Assembly (NCBI GenBank): GCA_021904315.1
Contig: CM038923.1
Location: 3,224,001 to 3,288,000, forward strand
Reading direction: 5' to 3'
Length of the DNA stretch: 64,000 bases
Source of the DNA: Sphagnum magellanicum
Lineage: Eukaryota > Streptophyta > Sphagnopsida > Sphagnales > Sphagnaceae
Shown one piece after another: positions 3,001 through 53,568 of the stretch; the stretch's first letter is position 1; each line of letters opens with the position of its first letter. Both the position numbers and the translations under genes were made by a program. The notes under the pieces were generated by a model. It saw only the letters and a program-made list of their open reading frames with translations. It was not told the DNA's origin and did not search any database.

Positions 3001-5663
3001 CGCAAGGCAGCAGAGAAATGGCAGATGGCTTACAAGTCTGAATCTTCGCCCCACAAATCTTTCCAGAATTATCAAAATGTATGTCAATCAATTTCCCCTG
3101 TGAAAACAAGAATAAAATCACACCCAACTCTTCACAAACATCTCCATGATTGTCCCCAAAAGAAATCTTGCTGACAGCCTACAATACTTTACATGTTATT
3201 CTACATCTAGTCTTTGTAGTTAGGGTTCCAAACACACAGAGACAATTATGCTTCCACTAGTGATTTTGACATTGCAAAACTTGGTCATTGCATTGCTCCT
3301 CCAGAATCCAATCTTGCCCACAATTTGATGATTGGTTTAATTGAGCATGGTCATTCAAAAAGAAAATGCTAACTGTTGACAAAAGGTCAAAAGAATGGCC
3401 CATCAAAACATGCTCTAAGAGGAAGCGCACTGCTTACAAAGCGGCTTGAGTTGTCATTTCTGAGAGTCTTGGCATTGCCAAATGCCTCAAGGATTGGATT
3501 GGTCTGCAAAATCTCATCTTCTAGCCCACCACCGCCTCCAAGAGCAGCCAAATACTGCATGGCAATCTTAGCAGTTTCTGTCTTCCCTGCTCCACTCTCC
3601 CCACTGAAGAAATATTTGTAAGCCTCTTTCCTTAGCATTCAAGCACACAGAATCACAATAACTGGAGCTAGTAGATTGTCAACTTGTGATAAAATCACAA
3701 GCTATAGCTTGAGAAAGAAACTGTAGCAATGATAAACATCACAATGCATCTCCTAATCACAAACCACTGTGATAAGAATAATTGCAGGACAGCTGTGGCA
3801 GAAAATTGCAAGGACAGAATTGACAGTCACCCATTACCTAATGATGATGGACTGGTTGATTCCCTCTGCAAGTTCCAATAACAATTATAGTTAAAAGCAA
3901 GGAAAATCTTTTTGGCTACATAACAGAAGTTAAAGTGGCAAGGGCTGCCTTTACTAAAGAGCAGCTAAACAGAATACATCAAAATGATCAATTGTGTCTC
4001 AACCCTCTTAATGGTGTCTAGATCTTTCAAAATATCTTCACACAACAGTTACAGGAACAATTCATACCTCTGACCATTGCTCCAAAAGCAGCATCTGCAG
4101 TCATATACACATGTGGGTGCAAGCTTGACCCTGTCTTCTTCCGATAAGCTTGAATGAAGTCTGCAGTATAGATGGGCACCTTCTTAAAAGGGTTGACCGC
4201 TATCAGAACAGGACCTGCCCTAGTCTGCATGACCAATTACAATGTTGGTTAGCATTCTAGAATCTCTGTCCTGACAGACAATTAGACAGCTGCTAAAATG
4301 TGCTCAGCTAGCCAGAACTCAGAGAAACCTCCACAATTGGGCCCTTTCTACATGGATCATAGATCATATGATTTTGGACGCAGGAACAGGCCTCACATAT
4401 ATCATGTCCCTTGAATATCTGTAAGTCAAATCATGAAGAACAGCAGGCTCATTAAGGTAGCTGAGCTTGATGAGGTCATCCACTCCCTCCAATATGTCAG
4501 GATTTGCAGGTTGCAGCATCCCTGAACTTGCTGTGACAATCTGCAAACAAAAGCACTCTTCAGACATGGATCTCATTAGACATTCTGGAAAGGCCTTCAA
4601 GACATCCTGCAGGAAACAGAATTCAAGTTGAAGCTCTCACTTGACAGTCTGAAGTGCGAATGACAGCCTGTGTGTCTTGTATTGATACAACCACCCCAGA
4701 AATCCAGATGTTTTCATTTGTTAGACACCACACACGAATGTTCTGCAAAAAAACCAAGGCATTAAAGATGCTTTAACATCATCTGATACCTTTCCAATCA
4801 ATCACCTGCAGATCAGTTTGTCTTACAAACTAAAGAATCCATTCACAGGAAGCAGATGCAAGCAAGTAGTACTGGGAAATGAAAACTGTTCAGAAGAGCT
4901 GACAACTCTAATTTGCAGCTTAGCTCATTACAGAGCTGCTTGATATATGAGATACCTTTCTCAAGCAGGGAATGCCATCATCCTTCCACTTCTTGCCCCC
5001 TGTAGATGGAGAGATAACTGGAGCAGGAGGTTCCTGTGATGTGCAAAAACTGAAGCTAGAGTTTACAGAATCTTCTGTAAGAAAACCAGCAGATGAGCTC
5101 CTTTGAATCTGGGTGGCAGTCTCCACAGCATCCCCATGAATGCCATTTTCCCTACCTTCTATTTGTTCTATCTGTATACTCATGTCAATAGCAGGTATGA
5201 AGGTAGGGGACCCCACATACACAGGACCACCCACCTCACCTTTGAATGTGGCCACACTGTCAACGAGAGGCCTACAACTACTGCTGAGTGCAGTGGAAGT
5301 ATCAGAAACTTCCATCAGCTGACATTCCTCTGAATTGTTGGAGCTCTTGACAGAACCAACTGAATCATCACTGGGCATAGAGGCCGCTTGCACAGTTGAG
5401 CTCCCCCCAGAGACATCAGCATTCCCATTGAACAATGCACTGGATTCTTTGCTGGGGAGGCCAAGATTCTCCAGAGTCACACCTAGACATTTCCTAGCTC
5501 GTAGAGTGGATGGCAAACGAGCTCGGGATGTTGGTCTTGGCGGTAGAGCAGGTAGCATGTCTTTCTGGTTTTCATCAAGCACGGCATCCCCATCATCCAC
5601 CATTTTGATCGAGTCCAGCATTTCCTCCAGAGTACTCCGGACAGGGCTCCTTGTAAAATTCAT
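1..5663 (-). CDS. Myo8: Class VIII myosin heavy chain, 5' part (partial, runs off window start)
   Basis: Actin-based motor of the plant class VIII type, a family acting at the cell cortex, plasmodesmata and division plane. Fifteen coding exons join without phase conflict: 4956-5663 (ATG), 4641-4742, 4397-4540, 4068-4224, 3838-3865, 3438-3603, 3034-3097, 2836-2849, 2466-2550, 2062-2165, 1327-1462, 1014-1132, 644-796, 365-454, 106-183; 2,148 nt, 716 residues. The class VIII N-terminal extension (about 236 aa) carries the signature [14 protein letters not shown]. The motor follows with [21 protein letters not shown]-loop GESGAGKT, switch I NDNSSRF-GK, switch II DIYGFE, and [21 protein letters not shown]. 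The last exon visible is [14 protein letters not shown]. The rest of the motor, IQ motifs, coiled coil and tail lie beyond position 1. No stop or frameshift is seen, so it looks functional. Class assignment is firm; the 14-nt exon is the least certain. Confidence 0.93.
1896..2022. repeat. Telomere-type repeats inside a short intron duplication
   Basis: Positions 1971-1994 read TTTAGGG, TTAGGG, TTTAGGG, TTTA, the plant telomere motif with one shortened unit. They lie between duplicated intron blocks: ACCAAACTGACTTCAT near 1897 and 2007, and GGTTTATTTTGACA at 1926-1939 and 1989-2002. This sits in the myosin intron between exons 2062-2165 and 1327-1462. Confidence 0.75.
2186..2325 (-). repeat. 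Two decayed copies of a myosin exon fragment inside an intron
   Basis: The intron just upstream (in gene sense) of exon 2062-2165 contains two degenerate copies of that exon's acceptor and first ~50-60 nt. Copy 2 (about 2207-2273) reads on the minus strand as a TATAG acceptor followed by [14 protein letters not shown], matching exon residues [15 protein letters not shown]. Copy 3 (about 2284-2325) still gives LEYCYLNR. Neither has a usable donor in register, so they are probably relics of local tandem duplication and not alternative exons. Confidence 0.7.
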
Positions 5664-5852
5664 TGTGACCTACTGGATGGATGCCACCCTTGACTTTTAT
5701 GGCAAATAAACCAAGGATCTACCAGGCTCCATTTAAAGTTCTGGAATGATTCAGCACTCAGGCAGCAGATGCATTTCCAACCCTCTCTGACAATTCATCC
5801 CATGGAAGAGGGTAACAAATCTCAAAGTGGGTCTGATCCTGATAGCCACCAA

Positions 5853-43290: not shown

Positions 43291-44330
43291 TTTGTACTAG
43301 TGATTTAGTTGGCAATAGATGAAGGTAATTCTTTCAAATTGAAACACCTTAACAAATTAAATTCCTTGAATGCATTAAATTGGCCAACGAACGTAAGTAA
43401 TTCCTACAAGTTTGTACATTCCCATAACAAAAACTTTTGGAGTGCATTTAATTGGCCAATGTAAATGTAAGTAATTTGTGCAAGTTGAAGCATTCACACA
43501 AATTAAGATTTTCAAATGCATTCAATGACCAATAAATGAAAGTAGTTATTTCAAATTGGAACGCCTTGACAAATGAAGCTTTTGGATTGTACTCAATTGG
43601 CCAATAGAGGAAAATAGTTATCTCAAGTTGGAACATTTTTCGTAAATGAAACACTTTGAATGCATTTAATTGGCCTATAGATGAATGTATTTATTTCATG
43701 ATGCTTTCAAATTAAAGAAGTTTTATAAATAAAGATTTTGGATTGCATTGAATTGGTCAATAGATGAAGGTAGTCTTTTCAAGTTGGAACACCCTTTCAA
43801 GTCAAGCTTTTGGAGTGCATTTAATTGGCCAATAGATGAAGGTAGTTCTTTCAAGTTGGAACACTCTTACAAATCAAGTTGTTGGAGTGCATTCAATTGG
43901 CCAATAGATGAAGGTAGTTTTTTCAAGTTGGAACACCCTGACAAATCAAGTTGTTGGAGTGCATTCAATTGGCCAATAGATGAAGATAGTTCTTTCAAGT
44001 TGGAACACCCTTTCAAATCAAACTTTTGGAGTGCATTCAATTGGCCAATAGATGAAGGTAGTTCTTTCAAGTTGGAACACCCTGACAAATCAAGTTGTTG
44101 GAGTGCATTCAATTGGCCAATAGATGAAGGTAGTTTTTTCAAGTTGGAACACCTTGACAAATCAAGTTGTTGGAGTGCTTTCAACTGGCCAATAGATGAA
44201 AGTAGTTTTTTCAAGTTGGAACACCCTGACAAATCAAGTTCTTGAAGTGCTTTCAATTGGCCAATAGATGAAGGTAGTTCATCCAAACTTTGGCATTGTG
44301 CCAAATCAAGTACTTGTAATTGTAAATAAT
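43290..44330 (-). repeat. 72-bp tandem array encoding 24-residue LRRs
   Basis: About 14 units, recognised by TTGGCCAATAGATGAAGGTA (plus strand) every 72 bp. In minus sense each unit encodes a repeat of the form LDLSGCSNLKKLPSSIGQLNALQ. Units at 43,740-44,290 are nearly identical. Those at 43,290-43,740 are progressively degenerate, with indels and stops. The array straddles the end of the HNL reading frame at 43,869. Confidence 0.9.
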
Positions 44331-47300
44331 AAAATAAATTATTTGGCAACTTTCGAATCATGCAATTTTTGAGGCACAACCACTTAACATTATTCAAATT
44401 TCGCCCTTGGATGCAATTTTCCACTATAGTTGATGAAGCTTCTGTTAGGTCAACCAACCTAAGGTTGCGAAATCCCTTTGAGCCGATTTGGGACAATGTA
44501 GGCAAATTGACACATGTTTTCAATGAGATGCCTTCTAAATTTTCCACCACCTATCACATGAATGAAAACAAAAGGATTGTCAATTTAAAACAACATTTCA
44601 TCCTAATGCCAATTTTTACTAGAAAAACATGTATTTATAAAATCAAGATTCAAAGTTAAAACATTCAGTTCTGGACATAAAAAAAATTCATAGGAAATCA
44701 AAATAAAATTATAGGATTGAAATAATATGGTGACAACCTCATCCTTTTGTAAAAAGAAATTTGACTTATTTGATTTCCATATAAATCGATTCATAATTGG
44801 AAGTTCCATTGCAATATTTTGACCCATGTCTCGTAATTGTTCATGTATGTACAAGATTCCATCTTCTGCCCATTGGACTAAAGATTTATCTTGTAAATTT
44901 TGTAATCCAAACTTTGGGTTTAAATAATCTCCACTCCACACTCGACAAATTGTACTTATTTTCAAACCACCCAAAAAACAAGCAATATCCAAAAACATGT
45001 TTTGATGTTGTTGATCCAAGTTTTCATAAAAAATTTTCAATTTACTCCAAAACTCTTCATTATCATTGCCCACGACAAAACTTTGCCCACTTTTTAATTT
45101 GCTCAATGCACCTTCCCAGATTTCCAATTCTTTAATATTGCACAAAAAAGAACCCAATAATTTAAGACTTAAAGGGAGCCCCCCACAAGCTTTTATAATC
45201 TTCATACATATATCTTTGAAATCTTTTGTTGGAACATGATTTGCATTACCAAATGCATGGAACATAAATAGTTCCCTTGCTTGCTCTTCTTCCAAACATT
45301 TCATGACCACTTTTCCATCCTCATTCACATGAGATTTTAGAATTTGCCAATTTTGACAATTCACAAGCACTTTGCTTTTAGAAGTTGCATTCTTGGCACC
45401 CTTATCAATGAAAATTTGCAAGGATGTAAGGTCCTCTGCCTTACCAACATCATCCACCACGACCAACACTTTCTCCGATATCATACACTGCCTAATTTGG
45501 TCAAGGTCTTCTTGATTCACATTTTCATCCTTGCATAACCTTTTGCCACACAAGTCATGTAGGAGTTGTCTTATGACATCATTGATATTGTCTTTGGATT
45601 TCACATCCTCCAAAAAACTAGATTTGTCATATTGGTTGTGGAACAACTGATAGAATTTTTTGCACAAAGTGGTCTTCCCAATCCCACCCATTCCAACCAA
45701 ACCAACAATATATTCCTTTTGTAACAAGATGTTTATGTCTTTTGCTTTGTCAATCAACGCCACCTCATGACATGGCAAAGGTGGAAGCAATATATTTTTC
45801 TGTCAAAATTCACAAAATATAGGTCATTTATATGTTATCTTTTTTATTTGATAATCAATATATATGACATTACATATGCGATACACATCAAGTGTGCTAT
45901 GACCTAATGTGTATCAAATTACATGAACATATATGAAATCAAAAGACTTAGATTTGATGTTTTTACCTCTATACATATTTTCAAACATTTTAACAATAAA
46001 GAATAGCTTGGATGATCTTTGTTTGGTGGCTTGCAAATTGTCAAGTGATTAGCATCCTCAATTTTGTAATGGTTGTTGTTTGATAACTGAATAGTTGAAG
46101 CATATGGCACTAAAATTCCTTGCATTTGCAAAGCATTAAATTAGTGGAACTCATTGACTTGTTTGGTCACTTATGCTTTAACTTATAAGTAACATTGTAA
46201 TTCCAAATGGTGGTGGAAATTAAGCTTAATAATTATTGATGTTTGAATCAGAATGAAGTATTTTGTGTTAAAGTAATTTCTTTCAACCTTTTGGCAAGCA
46301 AACTATATAGATACATCACAAATTTATTGGTTTTTAATCTCATTAATCTTACATGTTTTAATGATGTTATGATTTTCCTTACAAATATTTATATGGAATT
46401 GATTTAAAACCTATTTTTTGATGTTTGAAATTATTCAAATTTCCTTTCCATCAATAGTAATTCATGAAACAAAGTTCATAAAACACATGACCCATTCACC
46501 ACACTAATATATTTAGAAGTATTGAGTCCTTGATCCCATACAAGTTTTGACAATACAAAAAAAATGTTCAATTGATGAACCAAGTGGAATAACTTTCAAT
46601 GTGGTGAAATGAAAATCTTACCCAATTTTCGTCTAGTGGTAATCCTTCGCCAAATGCATAAATGTTGAGGTCTTCATGAGTGGCATTTTTTAAATCCATT
46701 GAAAGGTGTTCCATTTGTGGGTCGAAAGATTTTAAATTTTTTAAAAAACTAGATTGAGTTACATACTTGCTCAATGTGTTGATTTGTTGATGTTGCCAAG
46801 TAAAATAATTTGATAAAGATTGGGTACCACCAACATATGGTACACTATAAAATATTACACCTTTAACATTGTTCAAAAATGTTTTACAACATTTGTGTAC
46901 TTCATCATCAAAATCATTTCTTAGCCTTTGATGTATGTGTTTGTGAGCTTCTACCACCAAGCTTTTGAGTACAAGACCTCCAAAACTATAAGCAATTAAT
47001 GCCACGGGTCCATCCCAAAGGGATTGATAACTACAAAATATTCAACAATGCAACAATATTTTGTTATCAACATTGTATTAGCATGTACAAATTTATCCTA
47101 TTATACTTGGGGCAATTTTTCAATTCACATAAGCCATAAGTTCATAATTGTTTTGCTTGTCATTTTTCATTTATTGACTCATTAATCTACCCAAAAAATG
47201 TGACAACCATGTTTTGGTAAAATTATTATTATGTACAAGTATGTAGGTGTTTACATTCTTGTGTTAATGTACAATTCATCTTTTATGTATTACTTTGGAA

Positions 47301-49236
47301 ATATCGTTGAAATAAAAAGAAATTTAAATTAAAAATATATATATATACCTTTTTTTGGAAATAATTTTTTTGCAATGAAATTGATGCAAATTTTCTACAC
47401 ATGTAATAATGTAATATAATATAATTCAATTACATTACTAAAGATAAAGCTTCAAAAAACGCGAACTAAAAATTGCCATCAAAACCAAACTAGTTGTACC
47501 ATGAACTTAGAATATGAACATAGACTTTGCTGTTATCTTCAAACAAGAACATTTGCATTTTAGCCCCATTTTATGTTCTTCTACATGAATCTAACAATTC
47601 AAATAAATTGAAATTTGTTGGTGTGTATCACAATATTAACACACATGAACAATTAACTTGTGTAAAACATTTAAGAAATTCTAAAGCTGCAAACAATTAT
47701 CTTTAACATACACAAGGAGTAGTAATTAATGTGTCCATAAATAGAGGAGATTGTCACACCTTGAATTTGTAACCAAACTTTGAATGACGTTTTTACTAAT
47801 TTTAGTCACATCATTGTGAACACTTGCCACAATGTTAGAATCATAAGACAATGATAAAATTCGAACATTGTTGTTCAAGTATTCGGGTAGCCACTTTTCT
47901 GGCCAACATATGCACTCTTCTCTATTGTTGGTGGGGCATGTTGTCCAAGTTTCCTTCCATTCTTCATTTGTGCCAAAAGCAATCCCATGAAAAAAAACGA
48001 TGGTCAAGTTTGGATTATTGGAATTGCAAGTGGGATTTAAATCGTGCACTAGATATTTCTGCAAAGAAAATGAAAACGAATCAACACAATTTTTCAAGAG
48101 TCTCTTGGAAATTATTTGACTATACACGAAGTAAGAGAACTGCAATATACAAATTATAGTAGTTAGATAAAGGTAATAATTAATTGAAAAGGTTAAGTTT
48201 AACAAGAAAACAATAATAGATGAATTGGACGATACCAAATTTATCTTGCACAACTAACAAATGAAGATCATTCACTTGTGTCATAGACCTCAAAGTTTCA
48301 AAAAATAGTTCAATTAAGTAAATATTGTTACATAGTAGGTGGAATGTGTGCCAATCAATAAAGGTAATGCTAAGAATTAATTTCTTTCAAGTTTGGGTTG
48401 ATTAACTTAGCCATCTAGTTTGGTTCATTTGTATTTCATGACATTTTCCCCAACATTTGGGCCATTAAGGCCTCCAACACCTAAGGAATTGGGACACAAA
48501 CCCAATAAGAATGTCCAAGAGCATTTTAATAATTTGTTTTAATTTGTTGGATTAAGACTACACATTGAACTTAACTCATAATCTATAATGACAGTTCCAA
48601 TCCTTACAAATTCAATATATTCTTAGTCAATGCCAATTGACAAATTTCCCTTTCACCAATTCTACTTGTTATAGCAACTGAGTCGCTAGCCTAATGTAAG
48701 AGGCTATAATGAAGACTCCATTTCCTATTGTTTTAAACATCATTTCATATTTTTTTATCTAAACAAACAAACTGGAAAGTAGGCAAAGTGAAAAGGTATG
48801 ACAAGGAAGCTTGTAAATGATTGCGAACATTCAGGTACCCTGGTGGCTAAAGGGTATGGTTGTGAAGCTACTGGTTGGGAGTTCAAATTTGAACTAGACC
48901 TCCTTCTCTTGATGCTTTGTGAGGACAATAAGCTATCATGGTTGTAAGGGTAAAGGAAAATTGTCAACACCCAAATTTTTTTTTAAAAAGTAAAGAAAAA
49001 TCAAACTTCAACATGTAACTTGGGAAAGCCCAAGAAAAAACTGCGTAAAGAAAGCTCATGATAAGATCAAGAAGAAGCACCACCTTGCTGTGCCATCCAG
49101 AGCTTGAAGGAGCATTTTCAGCGGGGACCAAAGGTGTCTCAATCACAGTAGGAATCTGCACAACATCTTTCTTTCTTTTTTGTGGCCCTTGTGAAAGATC
49201 AACTCCTTTTCCCTTGAGGCCATATGAACTTGCCAT
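43867..49236 (-). CDS. Hydrolase-NB-ARC-LRR (HNL) immune receptor-like gene, possibly decaying
   Basis: NLR with an alpha/beta-hydrolase N-terminus, a class described in liverworts; such proteins are thought to sense pathogens in the cytoplasm. Proposed exons: 49084-49236 (ATG, 51 aa, PQKRKK cluster), 47760-48058, 46622-47030, about 45967-46118, 44738-45799, 43867-44550. The hydrolase resembles SERAC1-type folds: VFFHGIAFG oxyanion loop, WPEKWLPEYL, nucleophile elbow AYSFGG (usually GHSFGG) and ANHLTICKP with the His. NB-ARC has P-loop GMGGIGKTT, kinase-2 VLVVVDDV, GGLPLSLKLLG, MFLDIACF and an MHD-like YIHEQLRDMG. About eight 24-residue LRRs follow. Total about 920 aa. Exons 1/2, 2/3, 4/5 and 5/6 join in phase. 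Exon 3/4 does not: exon 3 ends in phase 0, and the in-phase acceptor position before 46,118 reads CAA, not CAG. The LRR frame ends at TAA (43,867-43,869) although homologous repeats continue. Domain calls are firm; functionality and exon 1 are uncertain. Confidence 0.8.
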
Positions 49237-51955: not shown

Positions 51956-52071
51956 ACACTAGGAGTCAGGGCTGAAAAAACTTGGGGCCAACATTGAGCA
52001 TTTTTGGCTTTTTGTCTGGCCCCAAGTTACTAATAAATGCTACAACATTGGGCACAAGGGTTGCAAATTGG
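51925..52071. mobile_element. Truncated copy of the 29.2-kb MITE family
   Basis: Sequence from TTTACACTAGGAGTC to GGGTTGCAAATTGG matches the left part of the element at 29,192 (TTTTACATTAGGAGTC ... GGGTTGCTAATTGG), including the TTGGGGCCA/TGGCCCCAA palindrome. Similarity stops exactly where the MAPKKK reading begins at 52,072. Confidence 0.7.
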
Positions 52072-53568
52072 CATCGTGACATCAAAGGGGCAAACATCCT
52101 GGCTGATAACAGGGGATGTATCCAGCTTGCAGACTTTCGTGCATCCAAAAAAGTTGTTAAACTTGGAACGATTTCTGAAGCCAAGTCCATGAAAGGCACT
52201 CCTTACTTGATGGCTCCTGAGGTCATTCGTCAGACGGGTAATAACTGGCAAGCTGATATGTCGAGTGTTGGCTGCACTGTGATTGAAATGGCGACTGGTA
52301 AACGTCCCTGGAGCCAGCAGTTCCAAGAGGTAGTTGCATTGTTCCACATTGGAACTACAAACTCACACCCTCCCATCCCTGAGCATCTTTCTCATCCAGG
52401 CAAGGATTTTCTCCTCAAGTGTCTCCAGAGGGAGCCCACACTGAGGCCTAGTGCAACTGAGCTTCTGAAGCATCCCCTTGTTCTCACCTGTGACATTCAA
52501 GGAGGATTAGATGGATTTGAGGACATACAACAACAAGCAGCAGCTGATGGTCATTTGCAGCAGCAGCGGGCAAATAGGGGAAACACGGAATTGCGATCTG
52601 TGAAAGGTGCACGGAGACAGATTGGCCAGGACAGCTGGAAGCCAACTGGGGTGCTTGGGAAGGGTTCCTCCTTTTCTTTCAGAGGCTCCCCATACTCCGT
52701 GAAGAATTCTGATGACATCAACTGGGCTTCCAGAAGGGTTGAGAATTCAGACATGGACGACCTTAATTGTTCTGTGAGGTTGGACTCTGTAAGGTTCGAT
52801 TCTATCCAATATGATACTTGGAATGAAAGCTATAACCCGATGTTAGAGCCATCATTTGTGGATGGCAACAACTGGAGGCTTAATCTGACTGTGAATGGAG
52901 GATTCTCTGTAGGAGGACCTGTTGCTAATGGAGATCTTGCAATCATGGGGACCCCAGAATGTGAGCATAGTCTGGGGGAGAGGGGATGGTCTCTGCAGCA
53001 GCAGGAGGAAGATGAAGTGACAGAATCCAAGATTCGTGTCTTCTTGGATGAGAAGGCTTTGGAGCTCAAAAGGCTCTAGACACCAATCCAGGAGGAACTT
53101 TATGAGACCTCAATGAGTAGCTCAGAAATTCCTGCATCAACTAGGCCTGCAGAGAGCTTTATTGCACCTTTGAACCCTGCTATTGCGAAACAACAAACGC
53201 ACAGCCCCAGCAAATCACCGGGCAGTCTCAGTGGAAGGTCAATTGGAATCAGAAGCAGCCAAGAGAGTGAGACGAGTGTGAGTTCTGGGAGCCCCAGTGG
53301 AACTGGAGCACCTTCTCCCAGTGTCAATTGTTCCCCTCTTTTGGAAATTCCGTCAGCAAGGTTGAATGAATAGAAAGGTCCACAGCAACCACTACCAAGC
53401 CCTAGTCTGAGTTCTAGTGAGCGTCAAAGGTTGTGGAAAGAGGAGCTTCAGCAGGAGCTTAGAATGAAGCGAGAGGAGAAACGGAAACAATTGGCTAAAC
53501 AGGGCTCTCCAATGTCTCCACCCAACTCCAAGGGGCTTCAACGATCTGGCTACTCCTTCCAAATTTAG
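52072..53568 (+). pseudogene. ANP/NPK1-type MAPKKK, 5'-truncated intronless pseudogene
   Basis: Similarity to plant MAPKKKs of cytokinesis and stress signalling (ANP/NPK1 group) starts in the catalytic loop, HRDIKGANIL, and runs in one frame to a C-terminal stop at 53,566-53,568. Kinase landmarks: ADFRASKKV (family ADFGASKKV; the DFG Gly is Arg), MKGTPYLMAPEVI (usual Trp is Leu), DMSSVGCTVIEMATGKRPW (usual D-I-W-S), ALFHIGTTNSHPPIPEHLS, LKCLQREPTLRPSA. Then come a Ser-rich tail and a basic coiled segment ERQRLWKEELQQELRMKREE. Two in-frame TAG codons (53,077-53,079 and 53,371-53,373) stand where Gln is expected, both explained by C-to-T changes. There are no frameshifts and no introns over 1.5 kb. 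It lacks the whole N-lobe, so it is inactive. Intron loss plus 5' truncation suggests a retrocopy, though no poly-A tail or target duplication was found. Confidence 0.9.

Follow-up and report, generated by a model that had tools for sequence, protein, structure and literature searches.

The minus strand of the DNA stretch analysed here (the window: 64,000 nucleotides of the Sphagnum magellanicum genome, C17:3224001-3288000) very likely carries a recently damaged member of a large peat-moss family of HNL (hydrolase-NBS-LRR) immune receptors, the intact members of which would act as NLRs with a hydrolase output and a homogenised LRR-minisatellite sensor. Among bryophyte receptors, NLRs with a hydrolase head form a major class. 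For the intact members, which are most likely NLRs, we infer that a ligand would be read by the concave face of the LRR solenoid, that the NB-ARC and winged-helix (WHD) domains would switch from the ADP to the ATP state before oligomerisation, and that the clustered alpha/beta-hydrolase heads would serve as the output enzyme, starting cell death through Ser-Glu-His chemistry of an esterase- or lipase-like kind. The sensor of such a receptor would be the homogenised LRR minisatellite, whose concave residues stay diverse.

Gene model and lesions of the window copy

The gene model comprises six exons (Table 1), and exons 1 to 5 of the window copy contain no stops. All three hydrolase motifs named in the original prediction (VFFHGIAFG, AYSFGG, and NHLTICKP) are present upstream of the NB-ARC exon and on the same strand, which is the minus strand, and the predicted hydrolase-NB-ARC-LRR architecture of the HNL class was recovered as matches to DUF676, NB-ARC, WHD_ROQ1, and LRR families. 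In the profile search that had been proposed as a check, the joined hydrolase exons, with an X placed at the out-of-frame junction of the window copy, matched DUF676 at 22.5 bits (cut-off 20.3); exon 3 alone reached 17.3 bits, which is below the cut-off. Exon 5 matched NB-ARC (PF00931, E=5e-31) and WHD_ROQ1 (9.5e-13), and exon 6 matched LRR families in Pfam, the LRR being short in the window copy. Four of the five junctions are in frame, and the intron between the hydrolase and the NB-ARC is in phase 0 (GAG/GTAAAA ... CAG/AAA in the window copy). Compatible phase at most junctions had been predicted and holds to this extent; what the prediction missed is that the misfit, which lies at intron 3 (from the AYSFGG exon to the NHLTICKP exon), is private to the window copy.

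The nearest PDB match of the NB-ARC/winged-helix exon was Roq1 (7jlu/7jlv, E=9e-39), a TIR-NLR that shares this module with the window copy and differs from the moss HNLs in its TIR head and irregular LRRs. Judged by this match, by WHD_ROQ1, and by a kinase-2 motif that ends in DDVG and not DDVW, the window NB-ARC belongs with the TNL/PNL/HNL group and not with the CNLs. The locus as a whole is, by its domains, a true HNL gene of a class already known. Within intron 1, positions 48835-48900 resemble tRNA boxes A and B in a SINE-like manner when read from the letters; ARAGORN and Rfam (at gathering thresholds) found nothing there or elsewhere in the window.

Table 1. Exons, motifs, and repeat array of the HNL locus in the window.
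Feature	Positions	Strand	Basis
Exon 1 (proposed): begins with ATG, codes for an N-terminal leader of 51 aa, ends in phase 0	49084..49236	-	Gene model and protein-level relatives
Exon 2: first part of hydrolase with FHG motif, ends in phase 2	47760..48058	-	Gene model, alignment
Exon 3: AYSFGG at the nucleophile elbow, Glu of F.EG (invariant), donor TGG/GTAAGA	46622..47030	-	Gene model, alignment
Exon 4: end of hydrolase, His of NHLTICKP (invariant); in the window copy, acceptor out of register and frame lost	45967..46118	-	
Exon 5: NB-ARC and winged helix, Roq1-like	44738..45799	-	Pfam, PDB
Exon 6: LRR exon, open for 227 aa, TAA stop inside the repeat array	43867..44550	-	
72-bp coding minisatellite (LRR units), 13.3 copies; below 43867 decayed repeats with stops	43309..44279	-	TRF
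VFFHGIAFG motif, hydrolase	47972-47998	-	
AYSFGG motif, hydrolase elbow	46976-46993	-	
NHLTICKP motif, hydrolase	46027-46050	-	
P-loop, NB-ARC (exon 5)	45668-45694	-	
Kinase-2, NB-ARC (exon 5)	45443-45469	-	
RNBS-B, NB-ARC (exon 5), Arg lost, reads VLVNCQNW	45347-45370	-	
GLPL, NB-ARC (exon 5)	45161-45187	-	
MHD-like IHE, NB-ARC (exon 5)	44822-44848	-	

One lesion concerns intron 3, whose two splice sites have phase 0 in all 18 HNL relatives and in a further copy, L031; in L007, where the acceptor alone was placed, this site has the same register. All 20 relatives (the 18 HNLs, L007, and L031) keep the acceptor in register, and in the window copy it is one base off. When the canonical sites are used, the window copy meets a stop after two further codons. 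In addition, the Arg of RNBS-B is kept in all 18 HNL relatives (as CRNW, CRDW, and similar) and is Gln in the window copy only. Neither this lost Arg nor the LRR minisatellite of the window copy figured in the original prediction. The MHD-like IHE is, from the alignment, no defect, as Glu is also found in 14 of the 18 relatives and Asp in the other four. Short open LRR frames also occur in three relatives (L023, L024, and L027), so the stop in the LRR exon is by itself weak evidence of damage.

We compared the window copy with L023, its nearest full-length relative among the fetched loci, and found a dN/dS of 0.40 for the hydrolase and 0.33 for the NB-ARC. The window branch carries 24-26 nonsynonymous and 19-20 synonymous changes, depending on the outgroup, and that of L023 carries 12-18 and 11-12; the window branch is longer, without a clear relaxation of selection. 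Since dN/dS is still low and no clear relaxation is seen, the damage is either young or tolerated.

We consider it unlikely that the window copy is functional, with a short LRR array and a non-canonical intron-3 splice, in which either the acceptor would not be AG or the donor would be a weaker, in-phase site further downstream within the open frame of exon 3. A phase-compatible GT is indeed present in that frame, and the stop-free exons 1 to 5, the short LRR frames of the three relatives, and the pattern of selection would all fit a working copy. However, the family donor GTAAGA is intact and leads with the nearest AG to an early stop, the acceptor is in register in all 20 relatives, and the loss of the RNBS-B Arg is confined to this copy. 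We conclude that the window copy is probably a young pseudogene and that the full receptor is probably not made from it.

Conservation of the hydrolase head

In an alignment of 19 copies (the window copy with 18 relatives), FHG, YSFGG, one Glu (F.EG), and one His (ED..H.TIC.P) are invariant, and the residue before the Tyr at the elbow is either Ala or Gly. On this alignment the Tyr before the Ser is the family norm and no defect of the window copy. Active lipases, Bacillus subtilis LipA among them, can carry Ala at the first elbow position. The hydrolase region is under purifying selection: the median dN/dS among the 18 relatives was 0.34 (153 of 153 pairs), and that of the NB-ARC was 0.42 (144 of 153 pairs within the dS limits).

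The original prediction had read the Ala-Tyr elbow as a sign of altered catalysis and of a possible decoy, a reading that these data do not support. Because Y-S-F-G-G is common to all 19 copies, the elbow does not speak for a decoy, and we dropped this interpretation in view of the family-wide elbow and the conserved triad. A catalytically dead head acting as a decoy or scaffold is, in our judgement, quite unlikely: Ala replaces the first Gly of GxSxG in the window copy and in many relatives, and NLRs with decoy domains exist (PMC11218826), but the presumed Ser, Glu, and His never vary, the domain is selectively constrained, it sits N-terminally in the position of output domains, and Marchantia heads alone cause cell death, two of them giving HR-like responses in N. 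benthamiana (PMC11218826, in the passages compared). An active output enzyme is the reading that we retain. The conserved Ser, Glu, and His, whose roles were assigned by motif and invariance, would form its active site; since they are invariant, the enzyme hypothesis can be put to a direct test with intact copies.

All nine joined hydrolase heads that were scanned, the window copy included, matched DUF676 (E<=1), while Cutinase and PGAP1 were each weakly matched by two of the nine. A search of PDB sequences with the hydrolase gave no relatives, with one chance match for the single sequence and six for the profile (best E 0.31). Likewise, one scan of prokaryotic contigs with the 19-row hydrolase-exon alignment gave 225 pattern stretches and no relative by tblastn, and the hydrolase-exon search of viral contigs gave six stretches and no relative.

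The HNL family in the moss genome and in other bryophytes

Our searches of the moss's own genome covered 438,994,042 bases in 31 contigs. With exon 3 as the query we obtained at least 150 scored matches (335 candidates), the window included, and 116 of the 150 are stop-free. It is very improbable that the displaced intron-3 acceptor is an assembly error in the long-read genome: one single site is concerned, but the stretch before exon 4 of the window copy differs from that of close relatives by substitutions only, with no change in length, and the nearest copy by exon 3 (L031, 153 kb away) keeps the family form of the acceptor, though with a stop in its own exon 3.

A hydrolase exon was found within 4 kb upstream and on the same strand in at least 59 of 125 scored NB-ARC matches (380 candidates; the window's own match is excluded), and the distance between the two in these 59 pairs is 937-2474 bases. 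None of the 125 NB-ARC matches listed has a hydrolase exon within 4 kb downstream, and none has one on the opposite strand. In 18 of 20 fetched NB-ARC loci, which we chose from the 125 mainly because their NB-ARC frame measures about 350-400 aa and which are thereby enriched for the HNL type, hydrolase exons 2-4 and NB-ARC exon 5 are colinear. The exon 1 leader has protein-level matches in 12 of these 18 HNL relatives (52-88% identical) and was not found in the other six. The exon-4 donor GT falls at the same codon in all 18; the exon-5 acceptor AG lies at the projected phase-0 site in 13, and in the other five the projected start is not on an AG. A single stop occurs within exon 5 of L010; in L013, L014, L016, and L017 a stop stands one residue from where exon 5 is projected to end and probably lies beyond the exon.

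Taken together, the colinear exons, the hydrolase exon that is found upstream only (59 of 125), and the leader in 12 of 18 relatives are strong evidence for a real family of fused genes, in agreement with the prediction that hydrolase and NLR are likely one gene. That they are two separate genes, merely adjacent, is scarcely credible, for while each domain does sit on its own exons, the one-sided placement of the hydrolase exon, the constant exon-4 donor codon, the phase-0 exon-5 acceptor in 13 of 18 relatives, and a Marchantia hydrolase-NLR fusion seen by 5'-RACE (PMC3352924) speak against it, and we dropped this possibility on the colinearity across loci.

HNLs were named from Marchantia by Xue et al. 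2012 (PMC3352924), who in the passages compared describe one phase-0 intron inside the hydrolase and another before the NB-ARC. The Marchantia polymorpha HNLs share with the moss family the N-terminal hydrolase, the NB-ARC, the LRR, an intron after the NB-ARC, and an NB-ARC nearer to TNLs than to CNLs (PMC3352924). By phase, both introns fit the moss relatives, and in the window copy the acceptor of the hydrolase-internal one is displaced. Compared with what is described for Marchantia in these passages, the moss model has an extra phase-2 intron inside the hydrolase, an upstream leader exon, and a long homogenised LRR array.

The original prediction described HNLs as known from liverworts, which is true of liverworts but too narrow, since Chia et al. 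2024 (PMC11218826) report Hyd-NLRs in mosses including Sphagnum and a 2023 review (PMC10952240) also names mosses including Sphagnum for hydrolase-NLRs, as far as the passages compared go. The Sphagnum hydrolase-NLRs of Chia et al. are from the same genus as the family described here, and most bryophyte hydrolase-NLRs in that account have an NB-ARC near bryophyte TIR-NLRs (PMC11218826). One fetched locus, L007 (C9:2123313-2127041), combines a CNL-like NB-ARC (LVLDDVW) with a divergent hydrolase head in front of it (GHSFGG) and, from these motifs, apparently represents a separate origin of hydrolase-NLRs in the moss genome; it fits the second, CC-clade group of Sphagnum hydrolase-NLRs in Chia et al. 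(PMC11218826, passages compared). L007 is one of eight loci (L001-L008) that were seen with only 1.5 kb of flank, in which the LRRs, and any hydrolase further upstream, are covered in part. In two other loci, L011 and L012, the NB-ARC is preceded on the same strand by an open frame that looks like a kinase (HRDLKPGN, read from the letters), and these loci look like the PNL class.

LRR minisatellites and other features of the window

The LRR arrays are the more unusual part of the moss HNL family. Arrays of the 72-bp unit were found in all 18 HNL relatives, with 11.6 to 53.7 copies seen and most arrays cut by the end of the locus; the short-flanked L001-L008, of which only L007 has a hydrolase, show at most 4.9 copies. 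The LRR exon of L018 is open for 1,321 aa and about 50 units. Coding minisatellites with diversity at the concave positions were noted in the window, in L018 (with L029), and in L016 (with L030). Homogenised LRR arrays of another unit, 141 bp, occur in the kinase-headed-looking L011 (7964-9901) and L012 (8005-9901), with 9.6 and 9.3 copies.

We took the concave-face positions to be those of the LxxLxLxx pattern of LRR structure and counted codon states among the distinct units of 17 genes, a set that drops the window (4 units) and L024 (3 units). For the five concave codons, a set fixed after the diversity table had been seen, the count was 249 additional amino-acid states and 50 additional synonymous codons; for the other 19 codons of the unit it was 219 and 183. 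Per codon, the synonymous variety is similar (10.0 concave versus 9.6 other), whereas the amino-acid variety is 4.3 times higher at the concave codons. The regular expression used to find the units fixes several consensus positions and thereby makes them look conserved, so the fair contrast is with the 10 other non-consensus codons. Here the difference is 2.5-fold, with 49.8 amino-acid states and 10.0 synonymous extras per concave codon versus 20.2 and 8.1. All 17 genes show more amino-acid states at the concave codons than elsewhere, and 8 of the 17 show more synonymous codons there. As the units of an array and the related genes are non-independent, Fisher and Wilcoxon values for these contrasts are not probabilities.

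When the concave codons were taken as a set of four, pN exceeded pS in 10 of 16 arrays, and when they were taken as a set of six, in 5 of 16; both sets were picked from the diversity table. In an entropy test, the concave positions of three of 16 arrays (L028, L009, and L014) were not outstanding among non-consensus positions, with fractions of 0.10, 0.21, and 0.15. Positive selection at the concave codons is at most suggested by these data. At the DNA level, the identity of units within a gene is 0.80-0.92, which is above the mean of 0.69-0.78 to other genes. The closest relative, however, gives about the same value as the gene itself, which makes exchange between members of a subfamily no less likely than exchange within single genes.

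Judged from the repeats, this tandem-repeat sensor looks suited to rapid change of recognition. A known parallel is found in fungal NLRs with highly conserved repeats, whose evolution involves the exchange of units and selection acting on the codons of the interface (PMC1805685, PMC4986451, and PMC12222747, in the passages compared); such repeats are rare in plants for ANK, TPR, and WD according to the passages of Dyrka et al. that were compared. Like the fungal NLRs described there (HET-D/E, NWD family), the moss genes have similar tandem sensor units, a copy number that varies between genes, and diversity on the interaction face, the last being a trait of fungal HIC repeats that appears here as the excess of amino-acid states in all 17 genes; the moss arrays were compared between genes of one genome. 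The fungal units, in contrast, are WD40, TPR, or ANK, and those of the moss are LRRs joined to a plant NB-ARC. The fungal HIC threshold also lies higher (units >85% identical over >=100 aa): the mean protein identity between moss units is 72-85% and exceeds 85% in one of 17 genes, on an identity measure that may differ from the published one.

We put forward tentatively, as a reading that may or may not prove correct, that the LRR sensors of moss HNLs, and of kinase-headed NLRs in the same genome, are coding minisatellites of dozens of similar 24-aa units that are homogenised at the DNA level while selection keeps their concave residues diverse, with unequal exchange making new specificities. 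They would then represent an LRR-based equivalent, in a plant, of the repeat-shuffling NLRs of fungi, coupled to a hydrolase as output enzyme. We rate this reading lower because unit identity is under the fungal threshold in 16 of the 17 genes. If the LRR arrays do generate diversity by repeat shuffling, the strategy of fungal NLRs would exist in plants too, with a different repeat fold. Intragenic LRR duplication occurs in angiosperm NLRs. In a partial literature search we recognised no description of LRR minisatellites in moss NLRs, and a prior description is possible; LRR arrays are absent from the account of Chia et al. 2024 in the passages compared (PMC11218826).

Two further open frames were noted in the window. 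A 249-aa frame at 4920-5669 on the minus strand has no Pfam match, and it seems to resemble the N-terminus of a plant class VIII myosin. On the plus strand, a protein-kinase frame at 51976-53373 (Pkinase, 8.5e-30) starts abruptly near the HRD motif and may be a partial copy; it presumably resembles the C-terminal half of an ANP/NPK1-type MAPKKK.
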